Below are positions 266 to 5,017 of a stretch of 5,017 bases of DNA, one piece after another (the first letter of the stretch is position 1; each line of letters begins with the position of its first letter). The notes under the pieces were generated by a model. That model was given only the letters and a program-made list of their open reading frames with translations. It was not told where the DNA came from and did no database searches. The DNA comes from Fusobacteriota bacterium. GTDB taxonomy: Bacteria > Fusobacteriota > Fusobacteriia > JAPLKR01. The stretch is taken from contig JAPLKR010000018.1 in assembly GCA_026387965.1 (NCBI GenBank), positions 1 to 5,017 on the forward strand, read 5' to 3'. The translations under genes and the position numbers were made by a program.

Positions 266-805
266 GTGAAGACCAAAATAAAGGTTTTGATAATATTCTG
301 TATAAGTATTTTTTTATTTGGCTGTGCAAATATGCAGGTAAATGATAACTCAAAGACAATAGCTGTAATAGATTCACAACTGCTTTCAGAGTATAATAGT
401 TGGGATATTGTTGCAGCTAAAAGCCGTTTAAATGTGTTGGAAAATAATGGCAGTATTTCGCAAAGTCAAGCAGAAAATATTTTAGCTATGTTAAGCCAAA
501 GAGAGATATTAAAAGAAAATTTTGTACCATTTGTGGAATTGATGAAACAACACATTGGTGAAAATGATGTGAATTATATTAAATCTCATACTTATCCTAC
601 GCTTATAAATTCTATGATGGTTGGACAACTTGGCCACTATAATCTTTCGCAGGCAAGCTTTTATTATGGTAAAGTTACATTTGCTAATCAATTTTCTAAA
701 TTTATACTGATTATAAATTATGCAGATCAATCCGAATATTTAGAAGTAACACTCATAGCGGCAAACAATCAATGGTGGATATATGATGTTAAAGAGTTAC
801 ACTGA
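266..805 (+). CDS. Putative lipoprotein of unknown function
   Basis: I do not recognise this 179-residue protein. The N-terminus is a typical lipoprotein signal: a short basic start (MKTKIK), a hydrophobic stretch at about residues 7-19, and the lipobox LFGC, which makes Cys20 the likely lipidated residue. The mature protein would therefore sit on the outer face of the membrane. Residues 40-100 look helical and polar. The C-terminal third reads like alternating beta strands ending in a Trp-Trp-Ile-Tyr segment (about 169-173). This is loosely reminiscent of NTF2-like or DUF4878-type lipoproteins, but that is only an impression. The start is GTG, chosen because GAGGAG at 252-257 lies 8 bases upstream and the signal peptide begins there. 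The gene ends 24 bases before rny with no terminator between, implying co-transcription. A lipoprotein gene is not a usual partner of rny in the genomes I know. Confidence 0.75.
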   Translation: MKTKIKVLIIFCISIFLFGCANMQVNDNSKTIAVIDSQLLSEYNSWDIVAAKSRLNVLENNGSISQSQAENILAMLSQREILKENFVPFVELMKQHIGENDVNYIKSHTYPTLINSMMVGQLGHYNLSQASFYYGKVTFANQFSKFILIINYADQSEYLEVTLIAANNQWWIYDVKELH

Positions 806-829: not shown

Positions 830-2182
830 GTGTTTATCGTAGTAATTATCGTTGGACTAATAGTTGGAATAATTATTGGTTTTGTAGTGAAAAAGAAGCA
901 AGTAGATCAAAAGATTGGCACGCTTGATGAAATCAATCTCAAAATTAAAAGTGCAGAACAAGATGTCGAAAAAGTAAAGATACAAGCCGAAAAAGAAGCG
1001 ATTGCAATATATAAAGATGGCGAAATCAAGGCAAAAGAACATGCCATTAAAATAAAAGAGAACGCTGAAAAAGAAGCAAATGAAATAAAAAAAGAGATCA
1101 AAACAAAAGAACAAAAGTTAGAGAAAAAAGAAGAGAACATTGATAAAAAGCTTGAAATGTTAGAAAAAAAAGAGCAAGATTTAGATGAAGAACGTGAAAT
1201 ACTTCTTCAAAAAGAGCGCGAAGTCCAAACTGTTTATGAAGAGCAAAAGCAAGAGTTAGCAAAAGTTGCAGGACTCTCAAAAGAGGAAGCAACACGCATT
1301 TTTATGATGAACTTAGAGCAAGAACTTACACATGAACAAGCTGTTATGATTAAAGAATTTGAAAGAAAAACTGAAGAGGATAAAGACAAAGTATCGAAAA
1401 ATATCCTTTCGTTTGCTATGAGTAAGTGTGCGGCAAGTTACGTGGTTGAATCAACTCATCCAGCTAAAATTGAGGAAGCTCTTAGAAAATCTAAAAAAGA
1501 GGTTGAATCGTCTATTCTTGAGGCTGGTGAGGCAGCGATGCTTGAGTGTGGTGTGCAAAATGTGCATCCTGAAATTATTAAAATGCTTGGAAGGCTGAAA
1601 TATAGAACAAGTTATGGACAAGATGTGTTACATCACTCAATTGAAATGTCACATCTTGCGGGTGTTATGGCGTCAGAGTTAGGTCTTGATGTAAGACTTG
1701 CTAAGCGTTCGGCACTTCTTCATGATGTAGGAAAAGCAATGACGGCTGATCATGAAGGAACTCATGGCCTTCTAGGTGGCGAGTTCTTAAGACGTTACAA
1801 AGAAGATGAGAGAGTAGTTAATGGAGCTGAATCTCACCACAATGAAGTTGAGAAGAACTGTATTGAGTCATTTTTGGTTCAAGCGGCGGATACACTTTCA
1901 GCTACAAGACCAGGTGCAAGAAGAGAGACATTAGAAGCGTATATAAAAAGACTTGAAAATCTCGAAAAAATTGCAAACAGTTTTGAAGGTGTTGAGAGTT
2001 CATATGCTATTCAAGCGGGTAGAGAAGTACGTATTATTGTAAATCCAGAAAAGATTACAGATGATCAAGCGCTTCTGCTTGCAAGAAATGTTGCTAAAGA
2101 GATTGAAGATAATATGCAATACCCAGGCATGATTAAAGTTGCAGTTATTCGTGAATCAAGAGCCATAGAATACGCAAAATAA
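830..2182 (+). CDS. rny: Ribonuclease Y lacking the KH domain
   Basis: RNase Y is a membrane-anchored endoribonuclease that initiates mRNA decay in Bacillota. This protein has 450 residues; the family is usually about 510-520. Residues 2-20 are a single membrane anchor. Residues 21 to about 195 are a Lys/Glu-rich coiled coil. Residues 150-208 (GLSKEEA through CAASYVVEST) match the stretch that normally leads into the KH domain. The sequence then jumps at residues 209/210 straight to HPAKIEEALRKSKKEVE, which normally follows the KH domain. About 69 residues, including the GRxxGxxGxN loop, are absent, and the reading frame is kept. The HD domain is intact: His298-Asp299 in LLHDVGK, His312, His336-His337 and Asp354 in QAADTLSATRPGAR. 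The C-terminal domain ends with the family signature AIEYAK. There are no internal stops. The family assignment is very secure. Whether the protein is fully active without KH is unknown. Confidence 0.96.
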   Translation: MFIVVIIVGLIVGIIIGFVVKKKQVDQKIGTLDEINLKIKSAEQDVEKVKIQAEKEAIAIYKDGEIKAKEHAIKIKENAEKEANEIKKEIKTKEQKLEKKEENIDKKLEMLEKKEQDLDEEREILLQKEREVQTVYEEQKQELAKVAGLSKEEATRIFMMNLEQELTHEQAVMIKEFERKTEEDKDKVSKNILSFAMSKCAASYVVESTHPAKIEEALRKSKKEVESSILEAGEAAMLECGVQNVHPEIIKMLGRLKYRTSYGQDVLHHSIEMSHLAGVMASELGLDVRLAKRSALLHDVGKAMTADHEGTHGLLGGEFLRRYKEDERVVNGAESHHNEVEKNCIESFLVQAADTLSATRPGARRETLEAYIKRLENLEKIANSFEGVESSYAIQAGREVRIIVNPEKITDDQALLLARNVAKEIEDNMQYPGMIKVAVIRESRAIEYAK

Positions 2183-2186
2183 TAAC

Positions 2187-2217
2187 AAAGGTAAACTTTC
2201 GGGTTTACCTTTTTTTT
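2187..2217 (+). terminator. Intrinsic terminator after rny
   Basis: AAAGGTAAAC (2187-2196) pairs perfectly with GTTTACCTTT (2203-2212) around a 6-base loop (TTTCGG). A run of eight T follows at 2210-2217. It lies 4 bases after the rny stop codon and should end the lipoprotein-rny transcript. The A-rich left arm gives some bidirectional potential. Confidence 0.92.
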
Positions 2218-2244
2218 GACAAATTTTTGATTTCATACTATAAT
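2216..2244 (+). promoter_or_regulatory. Consensus sigma-A promoter for ymdB
   Basis: TTGACA (2216-2221) and TATAAT (2239-2244) are both perfect consensus boxes with exactly 17 bases between them. The -35 box shares its first two T residues with the T-tract of the rny terminator, so one transcription unit ends where the next begins. Transcription should start near 2251, giving a leader of about 38 bases. Confidence 0.88.
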
Positions 2245-2288: not shown

Positions 2289-3062
2289 ATGAAAATTTTA
2301 GTTTTTGGAGATATAGTAGGTAGAGCGGGTAGAGAAGCTGTGTATGAGTATTTAAAAACTCATAAGACGAAATATGATTTAATAATTGCAAATGGAGAGA
2401 ATTCTGCTGGGGGATTTGGACTTACTAATAAAGTTGGAGATGAACTCTTTAAAATTGGAATTGATGTGATAACCGGCGGAAATCATATATGGGATAAACG
2501 TGACATTGTATATTATATGAATAAAGGTCTTAACTTAGTAAGACCGCTTAACTACGGAGTAGATGTACCTGGTGTGGGATTTGTTATATTAGAGAGATTA
2601 GGTAAAAAAATTTGCGTATTAAATTTACAAGGGCGCGTTTTCATGCCACCTATTGATTGCCCTTTTAAAGAGATCAAAAAGTGGTTGGAAGAGTTTAAAT
2701 CTCAGTTCGACATCTTGATTGTTGATATCCATGCGGAGGCGACTTCCGAAAAGATAGCCTTAGGTTGGTATTTAGATGGAGAAGCATCACTTGTATTTGG
2801 AACGCATACACATGTTCAAACGGCTGATGAAAAAATATCGCCAAAGGGAACCGCTTACATAAGTGATGTTGGAATGTGTGGAAGTTTTGATGGAATTTTA
2901 GGAATGAAAAAAGAAGCGATCATTCAGAAATTTTTAGATAATTTACCAACGCGTTTTGAGCCAGACGAAAATGACCGCGGTATTAATGCTATTTCAGTCA
3001 CTATTGACAATGTAACAGGACATGCCTTTTCAATAGAGAGAATACAAATGCGAAATATGTAA
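2289..3062 (+). CDS. ymdB: YmdB-family metallophosphoesterase (cyclic nucleotide phosphodiesterase)
   Basis: This 257-residue protein belongs to the YmdB / TIGR00282 family. The Bacillus subtilis member hydrolyses 2',3'-cyclic nucleotides and influences biofilm and sporulation decisions. Its length is close to the usual 255-265. The dinuclear metal site is visible: Asp8 in FGDIVGR, Glu37-Asn38 in NGENSAGG, Asn65-His66 in GGNHIWDK, His148 in VDIHAEATSEK, and His173 and His175 in GTHTHVQTAD. The C-terminal DVGMCG motif (193-198) and the R-F-E-P segment near 222-225 are also typical. The protein is cytoplasmic, with no signal peptide. The gene follows rny, the usual neighbour. Here, however, it has its own consensus promoter behind a strong terminator, so the two are probably expressed independently. 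I see no strong terminator downstream; only a weak AT stem lies at 3101-3122. Confidence 0.95.
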   Translation: MKILVFGDIVGRAGREAVYEYLKTHKTKYDLIIANGENSAGGFGLTNKVGDELFKIGIDVITGGNHIWDKRDIVYYMNKGLNLVRPLNYGVDVPGVGFVILERLGKKICVLNLQGRVFMPPIDCPFKEIKKWLEEFKSQFDILIVDIHAEATSEKIALGWYLDGEASLVFGTHTHVQTADEKISPKGTAYISDVGMCGSFDGILGMKKEAIIQKFLDNLPTRFEPDENDRGINAISVTIDNVTGHAFSIERIQMRNM

Positions 3063-3156: not shown

Positions 3157-3213
3157 AGATTCATATAATTAAAGCGATATAAAAACAATTATTAAGTAAT
3201 GCGAGGAGGAGTA

Positions 3214-3327
3214 ATGGAAAGAGTAAGAAATCATTCTGGTGTAGATGGTGCATTTGCTCAACTCACTACTGGTGAGTCAAGAGAGGTTTACTGGAAAGCA
3301 AAAAAACAAGAGTCTTGGGTGAAATAA
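3214..3327 (+). CDS. Small protein of unknown function (37 aa)
   Basis: The frame runs from ATG to TAA and encodes 37 residues beginning MERVRNHSGVDG. I do not recognise it. It has no signal peptide or membrane segment. It is basic at both ends, with a central A-F-A-Q-L-T-T-G-E-S-R-E-V-Y-W segment at residues 13-27 and a Lys/Gln-rich tail ending in Trp-Val-Lys. Support for it being a gene: a consensus promoter upstream, AGGAGG at 3204-3209 just 4 bases before the ATG, and a degraded sequence downstream (3393-3506) that keeps the pattern A-x-x-x-L-x-x-G-E-x-R-E-x-Y in the same order. The strong promoter and binding site predict high expression. Small cytoplasmic or sporulation-associated proteins of this size occur in spore formers, but nothing here proves such a role. 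Confidence 0.65.
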   Translation: MERVRNHSGVDGAFAQLTTGESREVYWKAKKQESWVK

Positions 3328-3515: not shown

Positions 3516-3860
3516 TGTACTACCCCCAAAAGTTAGACTAAAAAATTAAGCAGCCGATTGGCTGGAATGAATCCAGAATTGAACTGGAGACATTCCCGCC
3601 AATTTTATTTTAATCCGTTTATCCTGGATTCGCTACTATATTTTTCGTGATACCTTTAAATCCCAATCCATTATATCTATTTACCTATTTACCTATTTCA
3701 ATATCAGACTTTATCCCGTATTTTTCTAGTTAATTTAGTTGAACTCACTACCCTTATATGATACTCTTTTACCACTAGATTCTTTAATTGATTGCAATAT
3801 TAAGACATAAAAAACGCCCCCATTGAGTAGACTACTGCCTAACTTTTGGGGGGCAAAACA
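3516..3860 (-). mobile_element. Internally deleted IS3-family element
   Basis: The left end begins TGTACTACCCCCAAAAGTTA at 3516. The right end, read on the opposite strand from 3860, begins TGTTTTGCCCCCCAAAAGTT. These are matching imperfect terminal inverted repeats of the C5-A4-GTTAG type common in IS3/IS150-like elements. Only 345 bases lie between the outer ends, against about 1.2-1.5 kb for a complete element. Broken transposase remnants lie inside, on the - strand. Near the right end, GCCCCC (3816-3821) can pair with GGGGGC (3849-3854) around the palindrome AGTAGACTACT (3826-3836). Read on the - strand, this hairpin is followed by a T-run, as often seen before the transposase gene. The flanks show no convincing target duplication: AAAAA on the left, CCTCT on the right. 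Confidence 0.8.
3546..3773 (-). pseudogene. IS3-family transposase remnants (OrfA piece joined to OrfB end)
   Basis: On the - strand, 3617 down to 3546 encodes RIKIKLAGMSPVQF followed by nine residues and a TAA stop. This is the characteristic C-terminus of the IS3-family integrase subunit (OrfB). Upstream on that strand, in another frame, 3726-3646 encodes EKYGIKSDIEIGK, a TAG, then VNRYNGLGFKG. This resembles the helix-turn-helix region of OrfA, with the stop where Trp is usual. A possible OrfA start region (KRVSYKGSEF, about 3770-3741) precedes it, less certainly. The DDE catalytic core is completely missing, and stops and frame changes occur, so no active transposase is made. A tandem duplication of TATTTACC at 3680-3693 adds to the decay. 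Confidence 0.72.
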
Positions 3861-4028: not shown

Positions 4029-5017
4029 ATGGATATCAAAGAACGCGAAAAACTGGTGCTCAATGCAGTAATTGACCACTATATCAGAACGGGCGACACC
4101 ATTTCATCGATAACCTTGGTAAAAAAGTATAATGTTAAATTTTCTTCGGCAACTATTAGAAATGTAATGGTAACGCTAGAAACCCTAGGATATCTCGACA
4201 AAACACATGCTTCAAGTGGCAGAATTCTCACGACAAAAGGTTACCGATATTATATTGATTCCCTTTTGCAGATTAAAGACTTAACGGCATTTGAAAAGGC
4301 CGCGGTGAGCAAGACCTATTTTTCTCCTATACAAGAGTTAGCACAACTCTACTATGAAACAGTGGAACTTTTGGGAAATTTAACGCAAACAGCTGTTTTT
4401 TTGATAGCTTATGATGAAGAGCGAGTATTACTGCGTATTGATTATATCTACGTAAGTGAAAGAAAAGTAATATTAGCTCTTATTTTTGAAGGAAATTTAA
4501 GCCGTTTTGAAGAGATTCGGTTAAAAAATTCAGTTGAAAGATCTCAAATCGAAACCTGTATTGTAAAATTAAACGCTAGAATAGCTGCTGGCGAGTTAAC
4601 CGATAGTGAAAAACTTATAAATGCTTTAAATGAAGTGTTTGAGTTTAATCTTGGGTATTATCAAGAGCAGTATAAACATCGCAGCCAAGGTCGTTACGTC
4701 ATTTATGGAATTCAAAATTTAATTTATTCTATTGAAGATTTAACATCTACAGACACTTTAGAGCTTGTAAGTTTACTCAATAGCCCAGTGAGAAGTGCGA
4801 ATTTTTTCAAGGGAATATATGAAGCGCATAGCGAGCACGTGATGGAAGAACAAGGAATAAAGGTTATTTTAGGCGAAGAAGTTATTCAAGATCTTTTTTC
4901 AAAATTTGGATTTGTTTTAAAAAAAGTAAAGACTGAGGAAAAAGAGATTATCTTTGGTATTGTAGGTCCAAGACGTATGCAGTATGAAAAGGCAGTGAGC
5001 TTACTTGATTATGTAGG
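4029..5017 (+). CDS. hrcA: Heat-inducible transcription repressor HrcA (3' end outside window)
   Basis: HrcA is the dimeric repressor that binds CIRCE operators and keeps chaperone operons (hrcA-grpE-dnaK-dnaJ, groESL) low until heat shock. The window holds 329 codons without a stop; the family has about 340-350, so only the last 10-20 residues are missing. Residues 1-75 are the winged helix-turn-helix, with SSATIRN (39-45), the wing segment HASSGRI (60-66) and GYRYY (71-75). The middle is the GAF-like dimer domain, and IFGIVGPRRMQYE (308-320) is the conserved C-terminal motif. The start is ATG with AAGGAGA 5 bases upstream. Family-typical residues are replaced in the DNA-binding part: the usual PVGSRT is TISSIT (24-29), and the usual PHTSxGRIPT is THASSGRILT (59-68), losing two prolines. 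Two degenerate CIRCE elements flank its promoter, implying autoregulation. Confidence 0.95.
   Translation, partial: MDIKEREKLVLNAVIDHYIRTGDTISSITLVKKYNVKFSSATIRNVMVTLETLGYLDKTHASSGRILTTKGYRYYIDSLLQIKDLTAFEKAAVSKTYFSPIQELAQLYYETVELLGNLTQTAVFLIAYDEERVLLRIDYIYVSERKVILALIFEGNLSRFEEIRLKNSVERSQIETCIVKLNARIAAGELTDSEKLINALNEVFEFNLGYYQEQYKHRSQGRYVIYGIQNLIYSIEDLTSTDTLELVSLLNSPVRSANFFKGIYEAHSEHVMEEQGIKVILGEEVIQDLFSKFGFVLKKVKTEEKEIIFGIVGPRRMQYEKAVSLLDYV

Follow-up and report, generated by a model that had tools for sequence, protein, structure and literature searches.

A ribonuclease Y gene without a KH domain in a draft Fusobacteriota genome

The stretch of DNA analysed here (the window) is a 5,017-base contig in the draft genome of a Fusobacteriota bacterium (GCA_026387965.1, contig JAPLKR010000018.1); this genome is 95.5% complete and assembled into 141 contigs, none of which contains a 16S gene. 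The genes of the window include rny, for ribonuclease Y (RNase Y), and the phosphoesterase gene ymdB (Table 1). The rny reading frame starts with GTG and runs for 450 residues without a stop codon. The rny–ymdB order is common to the relatives and identifies the orthologous RNase Y locus; the rny locus is the ancestral one. Other genes separate rny from the upstream homolog of the putative lipoprotein gene in relatives. Between ymdB and a repeat element lies a small ORF (3213–3327; 37 aa, MERVRNHSGVDGAFAQLTTGESREVYWKAKKQESWVK), preceded by a GAGGAGG that resembles a ribosome-binding site. The repeat element itself (3517–3860) is non-coding and has inverted ends, CTACCCCCAAAAGTTAGAC ... GCCTAACTTTTGGGGGG, like those of insertion sequences; about a dozen genomic sites, often close to the end of a contig, carry portions of it. 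The hrcA heat-shock repressor gene (4029–5015) runs off the end of the contig.

Table 1. Features of the rny–ymdB region, in window coordinates
Feature	Position	Strand	Basis
Putative lipoprotein gene	266..805	+	Distant homologs upstream of rny in relatives
rny, RNase Y ortholog without KH domain, 450 aa	830..2182	+	TIGR03319 match in two stretches; single copy
N-terminal membrane helix and coiled-coil region (RNase_Y_N), residues 1–209	830..1456	+	PF12072, residues 2–203, E 8e-37
Junction: whole KH domain (69 residues, 207 nt) absent	1456..1457	+	Alignment with 35 relatives; no KH_1 at E up to 10
Linker helices, HD catalytic domain and C-terminal region, residues 210–450	1457..2179	+	PF01966, residues 266–358, E 2e-15
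Terminator-like hairpin after rny	2187..2212	+	Consensus scan
Putative promoter-like site upstream of ymdB, TTGACA-17-TATAAT, 12/12	2216..2244	+	Consensus scan
ymdB phosphoesterase gene, conserved downstream neighbour of rny	2289..3062	+	PF13277, E 2e-100; same order in relatives

The protein shares with the RNase Y of the B. subtilis and S. aureus type (rny; TIGR03319) the N-terminal membrane helix, the coiled coil, the His and Asp residues of the HD domain, the C-terminal region and the ymdB neighbour, but differs from it by the absence of a 69-residue KH domain and by eight changes at otherwise invariant positions of the HD part. Its score against the NCBIfam model TIGR03319 (486.4 bits, cut-off 454.35 bits) marks it as an RNase Y equivalog over the whole protein, and in a genome-level search the match skips model positions 205–273. 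The RNase_Y_N region and the HD domain with its His/Asp ligands are present, whereas the type I KH domain with a GxxG loop, which in RNase Y separates the coiled coil from the HD domain, is not. KH_1 was not found in the 450-residue protein by a Pfam scan, even at E values up to 10, and the same scan detected KH_1 in full-length relatives. The protein is a new variant of the known RNase Y family, one without KH.

Alignment with 35 full-length relatives revealed a single large indel: exactly 69 residues (207 nt), present in 35/35 relatives, are missing after T209, and all other differences are indels of one or two columns. Residues 193–209 (LSFAMSKCAASYVVEST) are followed directly by HPAKIEEALRKSKKEVE, so that the junction falls after base 1456, between T209 and H210. 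The block that the relatives carry at this point, VSVV...GRIIGREGRNIR...DGRI, comprises the whole KH fold including its GxxG loop, with the motif GRIIGREGRN inside it; it is flanked directly by the helix that closes with VVEST on its N-terminal side and by HPAKIEE on its C-terminal side. The alignment bears out the in-frame loss of 69 residues (207 bases) proposed in the first-pass annotation, which had let the upstream segment begin at residue 192, one residue too early. Its description of a clean loss at domain edges is supported, and the rest of the protein is, as it had stated, intact: there are no stops, and H269, H298, D299, H312, H336, H337 and D354, the seven His/Asp ligand positions checked (7/7), are invariant between this protein and the 35 relatives. 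A long helix is predicted at residues 2–146. Structure prediction from a two-row alignment gave a pLDDT of 68.5, with values below 50 around the junction (a KH-containing control gave 54). A fold search with this low-confidence model returned no match below E 0.001, and a sequence search of the PDB found no solved relative of the KH-less protein.

We surveyed the class in 98 genomes, that of the window and 97 others. At the threshold used, an RNase Y match was present in 92/97 of the other genomes. In 91 of these 92 the match breaks off at the KH edge or close to it, within an open frame of 494–552 codons, a length into which the KH domain fits; in the remaining one (G070) the RNase Y frame is broken. 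A continuous match over residues 1–450 occurs in the window genome only, among the 93 class genomes that bear RNase Y. Class-wide loss of the KH domain, for which a comparison with relatives had been suggested at the outset, is therefore rejected. The RNase Y proteins of the same class (L003, L009 and others) share about 58–66% identity with the window protein from residue 210 on, as well as the gene order, but every intact one has a KH domain. The genomes searched include no close relative of the window genome, and the observation rests on one genome. A reduced genome of the same class (G001, L069; 0.8 Mb, 91% complete) matches neither rny nor RNase E/G and keeps ymdB and RNase J. A search of viral contigs gave no relatives. 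Our literature search, which covered open-access papers, turned up no description of an RNase Y without a KH domain.

The rest of the window genome contains no second rny, such as the full-length copy that the first-pass annotation had proposed to look for; the KH-less gene is the single copy. A search for a stand-alone KH protein had also been suggested there. Six-frame searches of the genome with KH_1 and with the KH domain of a relative's RNase Y gave only PNPase above background, and a genome scan placed KH_1 above its cut-off only in PNPase; a KH domain of the RNase Y type displaced to another site of the genome is thereby rejected. Assignment to the wrong bin, or a paralog, is countered by the gene order and the single copy. 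The first-pass annotation had suggested that RNA might be recognised through a partner; KhpA-like (81 codons) and KhpB-like (195 codons) KH proteins, conceivable as such partners, are present, but the KH-containing relatives have them too. RNase J is present, and neither PNPase (701 aa) nor YmdB (257 aa) deviates from the usual size. The RNase E/G of this genome (L081:1150-2097; G000:C108) is short, at 315 aa compared with about 490 in relatives. The first 79 model positions of PF10150 are missing from it, as is the stretch that follows the catalytic part, but DVNSG and VDF, the motifs with the catalytic Asp, are retained. Its gene is tightly packed between its neighbours on both sides.

The HD part of the KH-less protein has also changed. 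It carries eight substitutions (N265D, V273M, G295A, S311T, K322R, A355T, Q434M and T443S) at positions that are invariant in all less-similar relatives, compared with at most three in every other sequence, an excess that is expected in part because no other sequence of the set stands as isolated as that of the window. In FastTree estimates, which come from this one sequence, its terminal branch for the HD part measured 0.384 and that of one sister family 0.153 (ratio 2.5), and the corresponding values were 0.530 and 0.327 for YmdB (ratio 1.6) and 0.787 and 0.564 for the N-terminal part (ratio 1.4). Relative-rate tests were borderline: chi2 ranged from 2.9 to 8.7 in the HD part and reached up to 6.8 in YmdB as well. 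The substitutions and the longer branch fit a changed constraint on the HD part after loss of the KH domain.

We consider it reasonably probable that this deeply branching bacterium has its true rny ortholog here and that a clean in-frame deletion of 207 nt removed the KH domain. It is unlikely that the organism's gene has a KH domain and that the contig dropped 207 bases through a local assembly error or a chimera, even though the contig is short, the assembly fragmented and the genome a single one. A random deletion has a 1/3 chance of being in frame, and L082, a draft genome from another phylum described below, also has an in-frame partial KH deletion, which shows that such calls arise occasionally in drafts. 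However, both edges of the deletion coincide with domain borders, and the unusual substitutions in the HD part also argue against an error. At 55 relative loci with the KH domain, homology between the two block edges is at most 1 nt and the longest shared word nearby at most 10 nt; such edges hold neither repeat nor microhomology, no repeat was found at the window junction, and there is consequently nothing for an assembler to collapse. The collapse that the first-pass annotation had allowed for is thus improbable in its repeat-driven form, and a chimera or other misassembly keeps a modest probability. The finding that two endonucleases that initiate decay are shortened in one genome speaks, without proving it, for biology over a single local error. 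The KH-less RNase Y is a real feature of the assembly and probably of the organism.

If the deletion is real, the enzyme could be degenerating and becoming dispensable under weakened selection in a repeat-rich lineage, while RNase E/G and RNase J take care of mRNA decay. The raised divergence of the HD part, the many copies of the repeat element in the genome and the retention of RNase J in a class genome that has lost both rny and RNase E/G (G001) are in keeping with this, but we regard it as rather improbable: stops and frameshifts are absent, all checked His/Asp ligands are intact, and RNase E/G is itself shortened, which leaves RNase Y without an obvious back-up. Small-nucleotide hydrolysis is frequent among HD-family enzymes, and the protein, beside the YmdB phosphodiesterase, might have changed its job, with short oligonucleotides or else cyclic nucleotides as its main substrates, or with a main role as a membrane scaffold. 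The adjoining ymdB gene and the unique HD-part substitutions agree with such a change; we nevertheless hold it to be very unlikely, as KH-containing relatives have the same rny–ymdB pair. Rather unlikely, in turn, is a broader proposal, that the lineage rebuilt its mRNA decay with an RNase Y that works without KH and an RNase E/G that works without parts of its usual N- and C-terminal regions, so that other proteins, or the catalytic domains themselves, took over the selection of RNA. To return to the deletion that we favour, the KH-less RNase Y is most likely genuine and probably still active.

Published work presents the KH domain as the portion of RNase Y that binds RNA or acts as a gate (PMC9775385, PMC5289998, PMC11821409), a role that is assumed and not measured in these papers. 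For B. subtilis RNase Y, an AlphaFold-based proposal places the KH domains next to a hole of the C-terminal dimer, where they restrict entry to unstructured RNA, and the C-terminal strands also form positively charged surfaces (PMC9775385). The KH-less protein would still be a membrane-anchored, dimeric, metal-dependent endoribonuclease. By analogy with B. subtilis, single-stranded RNA could reach the HD sites along positively charged surfaces of the HD and C-terminal dimer, bind there and be cleaved. Concentration at the membrane, along with the degradosome partners RNase J, PNPase and RNase E/G, could assist this. Gating or sequence sampling by KH would be lost, and substrate selection might become broader or weaker. 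If confirmed, this rare deletion would provide a natural test of the purpose of the KH domain: a natural KH-less RNase Y would show that the enzyme can dispense with it, and would offer a compact protein for structural work in which the share of KH in specificity could be tested by domain swaps.

Outside the class, a scan of contigs found one distant KH-containing relative, in a Syntrophaceae genome (L032). In the phylum of this genome, 234/247 genomes have an RNase Y match, and among the best ∼155 of these 234 matches one is continuous (G130, L082). It is continuous because this protein lacks the KH half that bears GxxG, as well as the helix in front of KH. Like the window protein, this RNase Y has lost the GxxG part of KH in frame and has retained the HD domain. 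It differs in that the second half of KH is kept, the helix before KH is lost and the edges lie elsewhere, and the two proteins are 42% identical. The genome is of high GC content, and its deletion is a candidate, equally unconfirmed. The partial KH deletion lies in frame within L082:1261-2877, and the retained sequence resumes at VIIDDTPEAV.
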